From Bacteroidaceae bacterium (GTDB lineage Bacteria; Bacteroidota; Bacteroidia; Bacteroidales; Bacteroidaceae): 64,000 nt of DNA. The position numbers and the translations under genes were made by a program. Where the stretch lies: positions 18,065 through 82,064 of the forward strand of contig JAFUFW010000001.1 in assembly GCA_017469685.1 (NCBI GenBank), given 5' to 3'. The notes beneath the pieces were generated by a model that was not told where the DNA came from, ran no database searches, and saw only the letters and a program-made list of their open reading frames with translations. Shown here piece by piece: positions 43,327-57,325 of this stretch (its first letter is position 1; every line of letters begins with the position of its first letter).

Positions 43327-43360
43327 GAATGAAAAGTGAAAAGTGAAAAGTGAAAAATAA
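43327..43360 (+). repeat. GTGAAAA-type simple repeat after SusC
   Basis: ATGAAAAGTGAAAAGTGAAA and onward, continuing to 43360 with a 9-bp period. It is complementary to the SusD signal-peptide coding region (43447-43480). Confidence 0.85.
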
Positions 43361-43381
43361 AAATTTCTATTGCATATAACG

Positions 43382-44869
43382 ATGAATCATAAAGAACATA
43401 GTAATAATAATATAAGAACGTGGAAAGGTAGAGTGAAGAGTAATTCTTATTTTTCACTTTTCATTCTTTCACTTTTCACTCTCGCTATGGCGAGCTGCAA
43501 CGACTGGCTCGACGTGCAGCCCCGCTCACAGGTCGAGGACACCGAGCTCTTCGAGACCGAGAGCGGCTTCAAGGAGGCTCTGGCCGGCATCTACTCATCC
43601 ATGGTGAGCACCTCGACCTATACAAAGGAAGCGACCTACGGCTTCATTGGTGTTCTCGCTCACGAATGGGATTTCTTCTATGCCAGCCAGTACGACGACG
43701 CTGCCGCCTTCAACTACGATGCCTCATACCCCACTGGATATATCCGTTCGATATGGGCTAACAGCTACAGCGGCATTGCCAACGCTAACAACCTGCTGGC
43801 GCACATCGACGAAAACCCCAACATGTTTTCTACCGACAACCACGACGTTATCAAGGGTGAAGCCCTGGCGTTGCGCGCGTTCCTCCACTTCGACCTCCTA
43901 CGTTGTTTTGGCGTGAGTTTTGCCGTCAACCCAGAACAACCTGCAATACCCTACTCCACCGCACTCTCCTACCGCGTCTTCCCACAGCTCACTGTGCAGG
44001 AAGTGGCCGACGCCGTGCTTGCCGACCTCAAGACAGCCGAGGCACTGCTGGAAAAAGCCGACCCGATTGTCACCGGTCGCGAAATAACCGAGAGCATCGA
44101 CAACGGATACATGCTCAACCGACAGCTGCACCTCAACTACTATGCCGTCAAGGCCCTCGAGGCACGCGTCTACATGTGGACAGGCAATTACGACCTGGCG
44201 CTCGAGGCCGCCGACGTGGTCATCAACGCCGACCTCTTCCCCTGGGCCACCGTAGCCAACCTGCAGGCTGGCTACGACCGCTCGCTCGCGACCGAGCACC
44301 TCTTCGCGCTCAACAACCTGACGATGCAGGCCGACATCGCCGACCGCTTCTTCGACGATGGCTCGCAGTACAGCTTCGCCGTCACACGCGACCGCCTGCT
44401 CGACTATTTCGACAACGCCACACAGGACTACCGCTACACCTTCCTCTTCAAGTCCGGCTCGGCCACCCACGCCAACAACCGATACCTGATGAAGTACGAC
44501 GCTCCGGCCGGCTCAACAACATACTATAATTATAAGATGCCACTACTGCGCATCGCCGAGCCTGTGCTCATTCGTGCCGAAGTTCTATACCGCCAAGGCG
44601 ACACAGACGGCGCACGCGCTGCACTCAACCAGCTACGCGTGGCACGCAACCTGCCCGCCTTGACGGAGCTGCCATCAGACTTCTACCTCGAACTCATACG
44701 TGAATATCGCCGCGAATTCCTCGGCGAGGGCCAGCTCTTCTTCCTCTACAAACGCTTGAACCGCCAGACAATACTCTACTCCGACGTTGATGCTGTGGCC
44801 GAAAAGGTCTACACCTTCCCACTGCCCATCACCGAGACGGAGGCCGCTCAGAGGGAGGATAATAAGTGA
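43382..44869 (+). CDS. SusD/RagB family surface lipoprotein
   Basis: About 495 residues from the ATG at 43382 (MNHKEHSN). The lipobox LAMASC puts the acylated Cys at about residue 39, giving an unusually long signal peptide whose hydrophobic core SYFSLFILSLFTL is encoded by the TTTTCAC repeat. The mature part has SusD features: CNDWLDVQPRSQVEDTELFE, TPR-like helices, ALRAFLHFDLLRCFG, and the C-terminal YRREFLGEGQLFFLYKR. It forms the lid over SusC and helps bind ligand. The stop codon lies inside the next GTGAAAAATGAAAA repeat. Confidence 0.95.
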   Translation: MNHKEHSNNNIRTWKGRVKSNSYFSLFILSLFTLAMASCNDWLDVQPRSQVEDTELFETESGFKEALAGIYSSMVSTSTYTKEATYGFIGVLAHEWDFFYASQYDDAAAFNYDASYPTGYIRSIWANSYSGIANANNLLAHIDENPNMFSTDNHDVIKGEALALRAFLHFDLLRCFGVSFAVNPEQPAIPYSTALSYRVFPQLTVQEVADAVLADLKTAEALLEKADPIVTGREITESIDNGYMLNRQLHLNYYAVKALEARVYMWTGNYDLALEAADVVINADLFPWATVANLQAGYDRSLATEHLFALNNLTMQADIADRFFDDGSQYSFAVTRDRLLDYFDNATQDYRYTFLFKSGSATHANNRYLMKYDAPAGSTTYYNYKMPLLRIAEPVLIRAEVLYRQGDTDGARAALNQLRVARNLPALTELPSDFYLELIREYRREFLGEGQLFFLYKRLNRQTILYSDVDAVAEKVYTFPLPITETEAAQREDNK

Positions 44870-44935
44870 AAAATGAAAAGTGAAAAATGAAAAGTGAAAA
44901 ATGAAAAGTGAAAAATGAAAAGTGAAAAATGAAAA
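44866..44935 (+). repeat. Tandem 14-bp repeat GTGAAAAATGAAAA x5 between SusD and DUF4843 genes
   Basis: Units start at 44866, 44880, 44894, 44908 and 44922. The first holds the SusD stop codon. The array ends 26 bp before the ATG at 44961. Its reverse complement encodes the signal peptide of the next gene (about 45018-45052). Confidence 0.92.
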
Positions 44936-44960
44936 ATCATAATCTCTATAGCAAATAACT

Positions 44961-45785
44961 ATGAATCATCAAGAACGATATAATATAAAAATGTGGAAAG
45001 GTCGAGTGAAGAGTATATCTTATTTTTCACTTTTCACTCTTTCACTTTTCACTTTTGCCTGTCTGACTGGCTGCTCCCATGAGGAAGTTTCGACCTACGA
45101 CACCAGCCACACAAGCCTGAACATCTGGGTTGGCAACCCTGCCGGCGTAGTCTTTGAGTCCACCACCTACAACTATTCCTACGCCTACGAAGAAGGTGCC
45201 GTAACATTCTATGCGCAAATAAGCGGGACGCCCGCCGACTACGACCGCACGTTCCGCATAGAACCTTTCGGCGACGACTCCGTCCTCGTGGCCCCGACCG
45301 TACGCACAGAGGACTATGTCATTCCTGCCGGGCAGATTGGAGGCACCTACCAGGTCTACTTCAACAGCAAGCAACTATCTTCGCCCGACCTCTTCACCAA
45401 GAGCGACGGACGCATCAACTTCCGCGTTGTACCTAACGACATCTTCGACCTCGGCACCGAACATCATCAGCAGTTCACAGTCGTGCTGAAAAACTATCTG
45501 GCCAAGCCCGACAACTGGGACGCAGCCAACTTCCCACGCATCCCGCTCTCGCGCTACTTCGGCACCTACAGCCGTGTGAAGTATCAGTTCATGATTGAGC
45601 ACCTCGGCCTCGTAGACTTCGAAATAAACTATAACACTCAGACGGCTTACGACGAGGAGACCAACATTATCTCTGCCGTCTATGCCGTACATCTCCAACA
45701 GGTGATGCAGCGGGCCCTCAACGAATACAACGAAACTCACGACGAGCCTCTGACCGATGAATTCGGGAATCCTGTGACGTTCTGA
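44961..45785 (+). CDS. DUF4843 domain lipoprotein of the SusC/D locus
   Basis: 274 residues. N-terminus MNHQERYN is nearly identical to that of the flanking lipoproteins; lipobox CLTGC gives the acylated Cys at about residue 35. The mature protein fits DUF4843 (DTSHTSLNIWVGN, IEHLGLVDFEINYN, ending NPVTF). Members are beta-sandwich lipoproteins encoded beside SusC/D and thought to be extra surface subunits of the importer. The signal core SYFSLFTLSLFTF comes from the repeat described at 44866. Confidence 0.85.
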   Translation: MNHQERYNIKMWKGRVKSISYFSLFTLSLFTFACLTGCSHEEVSTYDTSHTSLNIWVGNPAGVVFESTTYNYSYAYEEGAVTFYAQISGTPADYDRTFRIEPFGDDSVLVAPTVRTEDYVIPAGQIGGTYQVYFNSKQLSSPDLFTKSDGRINFRVVPNDIFDLGTEHHQQFTVVLKNYLAKPDNWDAANFPRIPLSRYFGTYSRVKYQFMIEHLGLVDFEINYNTQTAYDEETNIISAVYAVHLQQVMQRALNEYNETHDEPLTDEFGNPVTF

Positions 45786-45834
45786 TTAGTGAAAAATGAA
45801 AGAGTGAAAAGTGAAAAATGAAAAGTGAAAAATA
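45785..45834 (+). repeat. GTGAAAA-type simple repeat between DUF4843 and PKD-like genes
   Basis: Irregular GTGAAAAATGAAAGAGTGAA-like units; the reverse complement encodes the next signal peptide (about 45915-45950). Confidence 0.85.
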
Positions 45835-45856
45835 ATAATTTCTATTGCAAAGAACA

Positions 45857-47533
45857 ATGAATCATCAAGAACGATATAATATAAGAATGTGGAAAGGTCG
45901 AGTGAAAAATAAATCTCATTTTTCACTTTTCACTCTTTCACTTTTCATTTTCGCTTTGGTCTCTTGCTACGACGACCTTGGCAACTACGACTACCACGAA
46001 CTCGATGCCGTAGAGATCGACACCACCGACGCTGGCATACAGGCTGAGTATGCCATCATGCGCTTCGACACGCTCGTGCTGGAGCCTAAAGTGCTCTTCC
46101 GAGGCGTAGAGGTCCTGGCTGACGAGGCTCCGCTCGACTACACGTGGACAATCTTCAGCGCCACATCCGGCTCTGGGGCCAGCGCCGCCATTGACACCAT
46201 TGGCACCGAGCGCAAGCTTAACACCGTCATAAGCCGGACGGGCGGCAATTACTTCGTGCAACTTGTTGTGCAAAACCGCAACGACGGCATACGTCAGTTC
46301 TGGCGGGTGCCCGTAGCCATCAGCGAAGTGTTCGACGGCGGGTGGATGGTGTTTTACGAACGTGCCGACCAGCCAGGCTACTCTGACCTTGCCCTCATCT
46401 ACAACCCATGGACGAAGCTCAACGTTAACTACAATCGTTACTACACAAACCTCTACGAGACAACCAATGGCGAGCCGCTGCAAGGACATCCCATACGCAG
46501 CCTCGACATTGCCGTATCCCTCGCATCGGGCAACAACTACGTAGGTCTTTGCACCGACTATACCCTCGTGGGCGTAAGCGAGAACGGGATAATGAAAGCT
46601 CTCGAGTTCAATGAGTTCTTCCACGAGCCGCCTGCTACGATGCATCCGACATGGTATGGTCAACACGGCTCGGGCGTCATGAGCGGACAAAGCTCGGAAG
46701 TGCTGCTCAACGACAACGCTATCTACACCAACACATACTCATTCAGCGCCACCGAAGGACGTGCCACTAAGTTTGGCGTGCCCAAGTTTGCCAGCGGAAT
46801 AGGAGAACTTGCACCATGGAACGCTGAGGTACCCAACACGCTTAACTATGGAATCGTCGTTTACGACAACACCTACCACCGCTTCCGCTATGCAGCATAC
46901 AACGCGGCTCAGCTCGAGGAGTTTGCCGAACAGGACCTTTCCATCGCGGCTTTCGACATAAATAATACCGACATGGCCTTCGTAATGGCCGACTGGGGCA
47001 AGGGCACCAGCCAAGGCGTAGGCCTAAGGCCCTATGATTATATTATTATGGAACGCGCGGGCACGCGTTACCTTGCCGTCACAAACTTCTCCTCATCCTA
47101 TCCTTCAGACCTCAACATCGGCGTCGGCCTCTACCCCATGGATGCCCTTTGCCCTGACATCTCCACAGCAACAACCATGTCGGCCAGCCACGTCGGCAGT
47201 TTCATCTACTACGGCGCAGGCAACAAAGTTTACACTTTTGCCTACGACAGCCAGCAACCAGCCAGCGTGGCTTGGGAAGCACCATCGGCTGACGAGGAAG
47301 TCACCTGCGTGCGCATCATGAAGTACTACCACGGCACTATCTATGGCTACGGCATGGTGCCGATGTCTGACCGCCTTGTGCACATAGCCACTTGGAATGC
47401 TTCGAAAGGCGAAGGACGTGTATACCAATATCTCATCAACCCTGCCAGCGGCATACTTGCAACCGACAGACACTACGAGTACCCCATACCGGGGCGTGTA
47501 AAGGATATGGCCTGGAAATTCTCAATGCAATAG
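45857..47533 (+). CDS. PKD-like family lipoprotein of the SusC/D locus
   Basis: 558 residues from the ATG at 45857; a TTG four codons earlier is less likely. It again starts MNHQERYN and has a repeat-encoded signal core SHFSLFTLSLFIF, with the lipobox at ALVSC. The mature start CYDDLGNYDYHELD is typical of the PKD-like lipoproteins found after DUF4843 genes. An Ig/PKD-like domain (about 45-150) precedes a beta-propeller-like region (about 155-555). It is probably a large surface subunit of the same importer. Function is inferred from gene order. Confidence 0.85.
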   Translation: MNHQERYNIRMWKGRVKNKSHFSLFTLSLFIFALVSCYDDLGNYDYHELDAVEIDTTDAGIQAEYAIMRFDTLVLEPKVLFRGVEVLADEAPLDYTWTIFSATSGSGASAAIDTIGTERKLNTVISRTGGNYFVQLVVQNRNDGIRQFWRVPVAISEVFDGGWMVFYERADQPGYSDLALIYNPWTKLNVNYNRYYTNLYETTNGEPLQGHPIRSLDIAVSLASGNNYVGLCTDYTLVGVSENGIMKALEFNEFFHEPPATMHPTWYGQHGSGVMSGQSSEVLLNDNAIYTNTYSFSATEGRATKFGVPKFASGIGELAPWNAEVPNTLNYGIVVYDNTYHRFRYAAYNAAQLEEFAEQDLSIAAFDINNTDMAFVMADWGKGTSQGVGLRPYDYIIMERAGTRYLAVTNFSSSYPSDLNIGVGLYPMDALCPDISTATTMSASHVGSFIYYGAGNKVYTFAYDSQQPASVAWEAPSADEEVTCVRIMKYYHGTIYGYGMVPMSDRLVHIATWNASKGEGRVYQYLINPASGILATDRHYEYPIPGRVKDMAWKFSMQ

Positions 47534-55286: not shown

Positions 55287-57298
55287 TTTCTATCTTTGGA
55301 GTAGCGCTTAATGAGGTTGTAAGCGCTATAGATACCATATTCCCCTGCCTGGGAAAGGTCGGAGAGGCCGAGCTGAGTCTGACCGTCGAGGATGCAGGCG
55401 AGCCCACGGTTGAAGTATGCCTCGGGGAAACGGGGCTCGGCGTTCAATGCCTTGGAGAAGGATTTGCGGGCATCGCCATAGTCGTGGAGCGCCATCTGTA
55501 TGCAACCTATATTGTACCAGGCGTAGGCAAAGTCAGAGGCGAGATCTATGGCTCGCTTGAAATCGTCAATAGCACGTTGGTAGCCTATGCGCACGCTGGT
55601 GGCTGTAGCATCCACTCCCCCACTCTGGGCTTCCATTTGCCGACAACGTACTTGAGCCATGACAAAGGGCACGATAGCATCCTTAGGTGCCAGCACTTCG
55701 GCACGGCCAAGGTCAGCGAGTGCACTTTCGAAGTCGCGCACGTGGTAGTAGTCGATGGCGCGGCTAATGTAGAGGCTTGCTGACGGCGCAGCAGCTTGCT
55801 CAATTTGCTGCGACGTAAGCTCTATGCTGGTGAAATGAAGCTGCAACTGGGCTGCATCGAGCTGAGGTTCTGTGGTTGTAAGGCATAGAGCTATGCCCTG
55901 AGCGAGCTGCGAGTTGAGATCATCCACGCAACGATGAAAGGGTTTGTAGCGATTGGTGACGCTCTGGCGGGAGTGACGCGCCAGCACAACGATGGATTGC
56001 GGCAGCTCCTCTACACGCCTGTCCTGGACGCGGCCGCGGTAGTCGCTTGCGTACTCGCGCTCAGGCTCGTCGGTGTCGTCCTCGACGATGCTGGCATAGT
56101 CCTCGATGTTGTGGGCGCTCTTCTTACGCGTCTTAGTCGCATGATGCTTGATGCCTGCACGGGAGTCGAGGCGGGCTTTCAGCACACGGAACTCGTCGCG
56201 CTCAGCACCATAAGAGTCTCCTATCTTGCGCCGTATAGCTGCCCGCTGCTGATAGCCTACGAGGAAGTCGGGGTATTCCTCAAGCACACGGGAGATGTCG
56301 CGTAGGGCGGCACGGTAGTCGCCAGTCTGGTCGAGCAGCAGGGCACGGTTGAAGAGGGCTATCATATTGTCGGGCTCTACGGAGAGTACGAAGTCGAAGT
56401 CCTCAATGGCACGGTTGTCGTCGCCCACCTGGGCGCGCATCAGGCCGCGGTTGAAGTGGCCGAGATAGTTGCGGGGGTCTATCTCAAGGGCCTGGTCATA
56501 GTCGGTCATGGCACCGCGAAGGTTGTTCTGGTGGTAGCGTGCGAGTGCCCGGTTGATGTAGTTGCCTGCCACACGGGGGCGCTGGATGATAGCTTTGTCT
56601 ATTTCGGATTCGGCTTGAGCATACTCTCCCCTATTGAGGCTTATCATCGAGCGCATGGTCCAGGCCTGAGCATCGTAGGCGTCGACGACGAGGGCTGAAT
56701 CGACGAGAGCGAGCCCGCGCACGGTGTCGGCCTGCTGAATCGCCACCTGCGCTTTCATCGTCAGGTTCTCGGCATCGTGCGGCCAGTAGCGTATCATTTG
56801 GTCAAGTGCGGAGTCTGCCTGTGCATACTGCTTCAGCTCAAAATAGCAGAGGACGAGGTTGTGCCACGAAGGGCGGTTCTTTGGCTCCATAGAGATCACA
56901 CGACGGTAGTCGACGATGGCGCCTTCGTAGTCTTTCATATTGACGCGGCAGAGGCCACGGAGCTGGTAGTTGTCGGCTACGTAGGGATTCAGGTCGATGC
57001 TCTCTGAGCAGTCCTGCACCGCACCTGCAAAGTCCTCAAGATAGAACTTCGCCAGCCCGCGGAAGAAGTAAGGCTCATGGAGGTAGGGCTTGGCATTAAT
57101 GACCATATTGAACCGCTGTATGGCCAGCACATAGTCCTCATAGTAAAGAGCATTGCGCCCCATGAGCATGACACGGTCGGTGTTGATTTGGGCTTTAGAG
57201 TGAAAAATGAAAGAGTGAAAAATGAAAAATATAAATATATAGCGCAAGCTTGAAAACCTACACTTCCACACAACTGGAATGAAACTCTTATTTTTCAC
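55283..57298 (-). CDS. Tetratricopeptide-repeat protein, probably exported
   Basis: Up to 671 residues. About ten TPR units run through residues 50-380 and 520-660 (for example GDDNRAIEDFDFVLSVEPDN), separated by a charged low-complexity linker. The N-terminus is uncertain: a GTG at 57298 lies in the GTGAAAA repeat, and the hydrophobic core FIFFIFHSFIFHS before SKAQ is itself encoded by the repeat. The pattern VWKCRFSS mirrors MWKGRVKS of the SusD-locus lipoproteins. TPR proteins are scaffolds; the partner may be the coupled downstream fusion protein. Confidence 0.8.
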   Translation of the reverse strand: MKNKSFIPVVWKCRFSSLRYIFIFFIFHSFIFHSKAQINTDRVMLMGRNALYYEDYVLAIQRFNMVINAKPYLHEPYFFRGLAKFYLEDFAGAVQDCSESIDLNPYVADNYQLRGLCRVNMKDYEGAIVDYRRVISMEPKNRPSWHNLVLCYFELKQYAQADSALDQMIRYWPHDAENLTMKAQVAIQQADTVRGLALVDSALVVDAYDAQAWTMRSMISLNRGEYAQAESEIDKAIIQRPRVAGNYINRALARYHQNNLRGAMTDYDQALEIDPRNYLGHFNRGLMRAQVGDDNRAIEDFDFVLSVEPDNMIALFNRALLLDQTGDYRAALRDISRVLEEYPDFLVGYQQRAAIRRKIGDSYGAERDEFRVLKARLDSRAGIKHHATKTRKKSAHNIEDYASIVEDDTDEPEREYASDYRGRVQDRRVEELPQSIVVLARHSRQSVTNRYKPFHRCVDDLNSQLAQGIALCLTTTEPQLDAAQLQLHFTSIELTSQQIEQAAAPSASLYISRAIDYYHVRDFESALADLGRAEVLAPKDAIVPFVMAQVRCRQMEAQSGGVDATATSVRIGYQRAIDDFKRAIDLASDFAYAWYNIGCIQMALHDYGDARKSFSKALNAEPRFPEAYFNRGLACILDGQTQLGLSDLSQAGEYGIYSAYNLIKRYSKDRK

Positions 57299-57325
57299 TT
57301 TTCACTCTTTCACTTTTCACTCATT
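57190..57325. repeat. GTGAAAA-type repeat and its inverted copy around the TPR gene start
   Basis: GAGTGAAAAATGAAAGAGTG-like sequence at about 57199-57229 and its inverted form at about 57289-57322 flank the start region. They can pair as a hairpin in the transcript. Confidence 0.8.

Follow-up and report, generated by a model that had tools for sequence, protein, structure and literature searches.

Palindromic repeats as a probable source of start codons and predicted signal peptides in a SusD operon of a Bacteroidaceae bacterium

How did three neighbouring genes with unrelated products come to begin with similar DNA? The question is raised by a 64,000-nucleotide stretch of contig JAFUFW010000001.1 from a Bacteroidaceae bacterium (the window), in which a SusC gene is followed by the genes for SusD, a DUF4843 protein and a PKD-like protein. 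The organisms compared here are gut bacteria related to Prevotella, and their loci come mostly from metagenome-assembled genomes (MAGs) of ruminant and other animal guts. Each of the three gene starts lies inside an inverted repeat of ~150 bp that reads, in order, (GTGAAAA)n in the gap before the gene, a spacer, (TTTTCAC)n and the lipobox cysteine. Our reading, to which we give a probability of roughly 0.75 on sequence comparison, is that DNA resembling the Rickettsia palindromic elements (RPEs) was repeatedly recruited as start codon and predicted signal peptide, and then copied between neighbouring genes. The parts of the three repeats are:

43330-43368, plus strand: left arm (RTGAAAA)n before SusD, immediately after the SusC stop codon.
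43382-43495, plus strand: signal-peptide coding part of SusD, 38 codons from the ATG to the codon before the lipobox cysteine; right arm TTTTCAC at ~43442-43483 (Pfam SusD-like_3, SusD_RagB).
44865-44941, plus strand: left arm before DUF4843, the longest array of the three, overlapping the SusD stop codon.
44961-45071, plus strand: signal-peptide coding part of DUF4843, 37 codons; right arm at ~45018-45056 (Pfam DUF4843).
45789-45837, plus strand: left arm before the PKD-like gene.
45857-45964, plus strand: signal-peptide coding part of the PKD-like gene, 36 codons; right arm at ~45914-45950 (Pfam PKD_2).

When the three starts are aligned, the left array consists of RTGAAAA units and the right array of TTTTCAC units, each the reverse complement of the other. 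The spacer (~75 nt) holds the start codon and the basic region, and (TTTTCAC)n codes for the hydrophobic core; exact complementarity between gap and signal-peptide DNA is 17, 15 and 25 nt at the three starts. An earlier note, made from the sequence alone, had located GTGAAAA-type gap repeats and complementary signal cores at these starts, and its coordinates were right. It described the signal peptides as encoded by the reverse complement of the gap repeat: the complementarity is there, but the arrangement is better seen as one inverted repeat with the start codon in its spacer. The first codons, which it called near-identical, are similar, with pairwise identities of 94/108, 92/105 and 98/106 aligned positions (87-92%) and a SusD spacer 6 nt longer than in the other two repeats. 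In the 120 nt behind the signal-peptide DNA just 15-34 positions can be paired among the three genes, and the mature parts are unrelated, belonging to different Pfam families (SusD-like_3/SusD_RagB, DUF4843 and PKD_2).

All three predicted signal peptides have the features of lipoprotein signals: 5-6 K/R residues before the core, a 14-residue hydropathy of 1.98-2.47 and the cysteine. SusD has a methionine at -3 of the lipobox, a residue that is less usual there. DUF4843 and the PKD-like gene have a second in-frame ATG at codon 11 (MWKGRVK), a possible start that would still keep the repeat-encoded core. The left arm of the DUF4843 repeat (TAATAAGTGAAAAATG) contains the SusD stop codon (44865-44869). 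Several relatives also have an NK-stop end before other gaps.

Could such starts have become alike without any common element? Hydrophobic codons and A-rich gaps might converge by chance or selection, since FSLFTLSLF is a plausible core and the gaps are indeed A-rich. The 14-mer TTTTTCACTTTTCA, however, has 19 matches in the window with at most one mismatch, where shuffled sequence would give 0.05; the three gene starts account for 16 of them, and the other 3 lie at 57216-57319. The alignment of the three regions runs through their whole length and takes in the spacer round the ATG, which is not repetitive; the similarity therefore persists outside low-complexity DNA, and further copies lie in frame in cytosolic proteins (see below). 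We rejected chance low complexity on the three-region alignment and the TTTTTCACTTTTCA shuffle count, and regard convergent low-complexity signal peptides as very improbable.

The TTTTTCACTTTTCA matches away from the three starts fall in another copy:

57200-57321: fourth two-arm copy of the window, with a different spacer, between a peptide-deformylase-like gene (assigned by eye) and a minus-strand TPR protein (assigned by Pfam).

One of its arms probably encodes the signal peptide of the TPR protein (FIFFIFHSFIFHSKAQ), the start codon of which is uncertain. We call this repeat class A: a dispersed palindrome of about 100-170 bp with GTGAAAA/TTTTCAC arms and, in several copies, inner ends close to GAGTTACT. 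Read on one strand it gives a charged linker (KVKSEKVKNEK), on the other a hydrophobic stretch (FSLFTLSLF). In the genome of the window (G000; 2.83 Mb, 87% complete) our script printed 41 clusters, 12 of which contain both orientations, 11 of these 12 as GTGAAAA followed by TTTTCAC. The figure of 41 is approximate: the duplicate filter lost at least one further array (C58:54894), two exact pattern matches (C19 and C92) are not included, and at least two clusters of one imperfect match each (C43:16190 and C80:12327) may be chance. Read by eye, 7 of the 41 are predicted signal peptides, namely the three operon starts, L016, L014, L031 and, with its uncertain start, the TPR protein.

Beyond this genome, a query with the fourth copy matched at least 68 of 399 genomes of the family and at least 8 of 30 genera, lower bounds since at most two candidates per genome were scored. 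Three of the matches lie in 99%-complete genomes of 10-20 contigs, so the arms are not peculiar to fragmented MAGs. Does the spacer travel with the arms? The earlier note had suggested looking for the cassette before other lipoproteins of the genome. A similarity search of G000 (100 matches listed, 40 of 74 candidates scored, so that copies may be missed) found no fourth spacer-bearing copy among the candidates scored. Across 139 genomes of the genus, a spacer-only query gave 6 matches in 3 genomes, with all candidates scored in the results shown, and a longer cassette query gave at least 11 matches in 8 genomes, including G063, with at most 6 candidates scored per genome; every match was in this operon. 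The three G000 copies themselves fall under the cut-off of both queries. A portable genome-wide class A cassette including the spacer was therefore rejected: the spacer turned up in this operon alone, and the arms belong to a dispersed palindrome that is also found in gaps and in cytosolic proteins.

How deeply the palindrome enters coding sequence was seen with a reading-frame script, which covered 22 of the 41 G000 clusters, and with Pfam scans of 10 resulting proteins, the tenth being the TPR protein of the window. In-frame arrays or elements are present in a polysaccharide flippase, an M56 protein, and GH32, RNB and FGGY proteins. In a HATPase protein the element occupies residues 225-257, within the domain match at 196-320; in MutS2 it occupies 517-552, between MutS_V and MSSS. 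Other in-frame copies lie behind the matched domain stretch of a DegT aminotransferase, between HATPase_c and Response_reg of a hybrid two-component regulator, and in the linker of an ABC ATPase (Pfam ABC_tran; the name "UvrA-like" is ours). The MutS2, UvrA-like and M56 copies have an extra GGEAD block in common. Five loops with a single array use the charged reading KVKSEK (L035, L037, L042, L043 and L045); L036 uses the opposite one, with FSFFTFHFSF within the protein, and L034 is ambiguous.

The HATPase loop, between the NAVEAGA and ISNNG motifs, could be compared in nine orthologues. It holds class A in G000, and in G088 and G003 a different repeat, class B, which is a GC-rich inverted pair of hairpins like repetitive extragenic palindromic (REP) sequences, with a variable spacer. 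In G042 class A is accompanied by a further insert, and in G077 the two classes lie next to each other. G015 shows one class B arm alone and G016 a remnant; the short loops of G075 and G136 hold no element. These varied fills indicate one tolerant loop that was filled repeatedly, in frame, by different palindromes. The G042 sensor-kinase (HATPase) loop and the G016 UvrA-like linker also have an extra peptide in common (VNFRSSE.NQA.LN.RVVTKVSKAKSEKY; L186, L171), apparently a third element nested in class A.

Do relatives of the operon keep the repeat at the same gene starts? The PKD-like protein was matched in 22 of the 139 genus genomes, G000 included, and 20 regions upstream of these matches were read (G105 was left out; in G119 SusD was not found and DUF4843 was partial). 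Scanning named genomes yielded 63 loci, just one of them from a named culture-collection strain (Xylanibacter brevis ATCC 19188). From 62 of these (all except L260) and the window we scored the complementarity between gap and signal-peptide DNA at 186 starts of the three genes, with the following thioredoxin-like gene as control; one SusD start at an edge and one without a hit, one partial DUF4843, and one thioredoxin start without a hit and one partial were dropped. The set inside the genus comprises 21 loci and the window.

A score of at least 14 was reached at 13/61 SusD, 11/62 DUF4843 and 7/63 PKD starts, compared to 2/61 starts of the thioredoxin-like gene (Fisher p 0.008 for the three genes against the control, kinship not corrected). 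The signal is concentrated inside the genus, with 30 of 64 starts of the three genes against 1 of 122 outside (DUF4843 of L219); for the control gene the figures are 2 of 22 and 0 of 39. Loci outside the genus have mostly ordinary signal peptides, apart from exceptions such as the thioredoxin-like start of L237 (FFILHFSLFLFSLSL). Inside it, 15 starts are class A and about 25 are class B; these class labels, like the signal-peptide readings, were assigned by eye. Where class B fills the slot, its arms again flank the start codon. Two further patterns were seen in these operons. DUF4843 or PKD starts of L116, L118 and L119 are of another type, with TTATACAT-like repeats (NYTLYIIHHTLSIVIAMAM) that are not palindromic by score. 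In L108 (G016), SusD and DUF4843 have a near-identical start, MSMRI.HSLYIRYSFIAIMAAMLASC, and both gaps contain GTGCCCCTTCCGTCAGGAAGGG repeats; this sharing looks like within-operon copying.

Arms that bracket the start codon in both classes bring to mind a selected mRNA hairpin, controlling the translation or stability of the SusD, DUF4843 and PKD-like messages, with the signal peptide merely dragged along. The three starts do fold more stably than every one of their 200 shuffles (z -5.1, -4.2 and -4.1); Rfam had no match in the window at 36000-60000. But any palindrome folds well, and where the hairpin is not conserved, folding is weak evidence for regulation: the complementarity is missing at 121 of 122 starts outside the genus and at 34 of 64 inside it, unrelated sequence fills the slot in near relatives, and the same palindromes occur within coding loops. 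We consider such a regulatory hairpin quite unlikely.

Is class B, then, tied to exported proteins? Its query, for which up to 6 candidates were scored in each genome, matched at least 55 of the 139 genomes of the genus. Among 30 loci, one per genome, a class B arm reads as a signal peptide in 14, a sample biased by the signal-peptide arm that the query itself held. Twelve of these readings are by the longest frame; the other two, L138 and L139, come from DUF4843 starts of this operon when the opposite strand is read. Six of the 14 are in this operon and 8 in other genes. Pfam assignments speak for export of L141 (SusD), L142 (GH32, BT1760-like) and L160 (DUF4973, BT_3044-like), and L157 (PD40) is compatible with it; for L162, PmbA/TldD-like, export is doubtful, and L144, L148 and L151 had no Pfam match.

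Class B was surveyed further in one genome, G138 (40 of 184 candidates scored, 33 stretches taken, 48 arm clusters printed). Since GC-rich arms lack stop codons, the longest overlapping frame may be antisense, and we relied here on domain-bearing frames. In this genome, N-terminal tags resembling TPLPTREGQGGGS stand on proteins that Pfam identifies as gyrase B, a cytidylyltransferase, YgbB/IspF, an amino acid kinase, glycerol-3-phosphate dehydrogenase, PyrI and an aminotransferase; loci with such tagged cytosolic proteins include L313, L316, L306, L310 and L314. Similar tags begin a class I tRNA synthetase (L154, G118) and a phage-type integrase (L146, G015). At 16 class B starts picked by eye, 14 from G138 together with L154 and L146, an upstream complementary arm scoring at least 26 is present in seven (L317, L314, L307, L323, L319, L154 and L146); in L317, whose start is uncertain, no methionine was seen between the stop codon and the arm. 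With complementary arms upstream of cytosolic-protein starts, the layout of arms round a start is not limited to exported proteins. The suggestion of the earlier note that the repeat offers a route for making exported proteins thus holds in part: signal peptides are one outcome of repeat spread, and not evidently its purpose.

The palindromes could also be of local origin, with no mobile element involved: template switching would have occurred between the gap and the start of the gene, and the heptamer array would afterwards have undergone slippage. The arms are tandem heptamer-like repeats with ragged ends, as this would predict, and in 17 class B arm pairings from G138 (two sharing an arm) the similarity of arms is slightly higher within elements than between them (0.802 vs 0.781; 458 of 10000 permutations reach this difference). 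This excess is small, however: arms of one element are barely more alike, which favours the spread of a common element, although arm conversion may still have acted. The same arms and inner ends also recur at unrelated loci, in at least 8 of 30 genera, and the GGEAD block is common to the MutS2, UvrA-like and M56 copies. Overall we judge origin on the spot to be rather unlikely.

If the palindromes spread as elements, did those in the operon arrive separately? In 12 class A cassettes with the same MN start, alignment gaps are 2, 7 or 11 nt before the ATG and 6 or 3 nt behind it, which fits translation from this ATG; the remaining three class A cassettes start differently, and two of them show a 2-nt gap in a mixed alignment. 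Mean cassette identity is 0.82 for pairs from different genes of one genome (n=8), 0.73 for the same gene between genomes (n=34) and 0.69 for the rest (n=63). In a tree, the three G000 copies form one group (89/86, under the star threshold) and the three copies of L227 group weakly (43/88). Mapped over the 15 class A cassettes, genome labels need 8 changes, the minimum for nine genomes, which 1 of 300 shuffles reaches. Gene labels need 7, a count equalled or undercut in 224 of 300 shuffles. The cassettes therefore follow the genome and not the gene, and copying between neighbouring operon genes is likely. This bears out the earlier note as regards a unit copied before unrelated domains, one that carries start codon, basic n-region and hydrophobic core, with the copying placed among the genes of the operon.

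The architecture, the dispersal, the in-frame placement and the different families in orthologues can be read from the sequences themselves. From them we infer insertion as the original event, copying by conversion and working secretion, in the following way. The class A palindrome would land in gaps, in in-frame loops and linkers, and across gene starts. In a copy that spans a start, the spacer would give the start codon and basic n-region, and the second arm the hydrophobic core of a lipoprotein signal, ending at the lipobox cysteine. Such a cassette may have replaced the ordinary signal peptide of this operon in the lineage, after which duplication or gene conversion would have copied it among the neighbouring genes; class B would have filled the same slot in other species of the genus.

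Several observations weigh against this reading. No target-site duplication was visible by eye in the 12-nt flanks of the 17 arm pairings, with orthologous empty sites too divergent, and class A copies have ragged outer ends. No enzyme that could mobilise the repeats was identified: PF01797 (Y1_Tnp), the family of REP-associated tyrosine transposases (RAYT), had no match in G000 (87% complete) or in the class-B-rich genomes G103, G015, G018 and G105. PF01797 matched in 62 of the 139 genus genomes, among them G138, G055 and G094. The assemblies with and without a match named here are 72-88% complete; a RAYT link is not supported by this distribution. The viral contigs searched contained no exact class A or class B pattern, and no class A element was seen in the collections of plasmids and phages searched. 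The control thioredoxin gene carries elements too, with a class-B-like start in five loci (PSLLREGSGVSLAQG). As to copying, identity is 58% between SusD and DUF4843 cassettes within L199 but 97% between the SusD cassettes of L199 and L200, and the two L249 cassettes stand apart in the tree. The rows behind the gap pattern at the ATG were picked as open frames with one start, which makes that pattern modest evidence, and nearly all compared genomes are MAGs.

Do these repeats belong to a known kind? REPINs and bacterial interspersed mosaic elements (BIMEs) are inverted doublets of REP hairpins. Class B is likewise made of two inverted REP-like hairpins with a variable spacer; it differs in having copies within genes and no consistent PF01797 partner. 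Both classes have the terminal inverted repeats of miniature inverted-repeat transposable elements (MITEs). The RPEs and their Wolbachia equivalent (Ogata et al.) are described as stem-loops of 105-146 bp with inverted ends, found in gaps and in frame in conserved genes (PMC2229807, PMC6649704). Class A and class B are similar in being dispersed palindromes of about 100-150 bp (some copies ~170 bp) that lie in frame in conserved protein genes and are absent from some orthologues. They differ in that the host phylum is another one and the arms look different to the eye, and in that copies spanning a start encode predicted signal peptides and one and the same slot holds different families from one orthologue to another. 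In Yersinia, RU-2/YPAL at YPO1552 (Delihas; PMC2759123, PMC2229807) offers a likeness in the unrelated signal peptides of relatives. Those are single cases, whereas here three adjacent genes and other loci are involved, the start codon lies in the spacer, and different families appear in orthologues. BrickBuilt, a MITE known from Porphyromonas gingivalis and P. gulae, is a Bacteroidota repeat with tandem units and inverted ends (PMC4596501); its units are of 23 nt and, according to that account, always intergenic, unlike the heptamer arms here, which also lie within genes. The palindromic amphipathic repeat coding elements (PARCELs) of membrane-targeted proteins are palindromic DNA that codes for protein as well, but as 25-residue tandem protein domains and not as signal peptides (PMC2996958).

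A literature search gave no recognised report of palindromic repeats encoding signal peptides in Bacteroidota, which does not prove that there is none. Annotators of these genomes should be aware that a start like FSLFTLSLF or TPLPTREGQGGGS may be a real N-terminus derived from a repeat, or the sign of a wrongly chosen start.

New signal peptides are usually thought to come from point mutation or fusion. More tentatively, and at somewhat less than even odds, the unrelated palindrome families of this genus may form a shared reservoir of interchangeable gene starts, each offering a start codon together with a secretion signal or a soluble tag. N-termini, including the signal peptides of surface glycan-uptake lipoproteins, would then turn over by repeat swapping and not by point mutation. 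Whatever the odds of that, related species carry these genes with signal peptides of the ordinary, class A or class B kind, a natural series in which to ask how selfish repeats turn into functioning parts of proteins.

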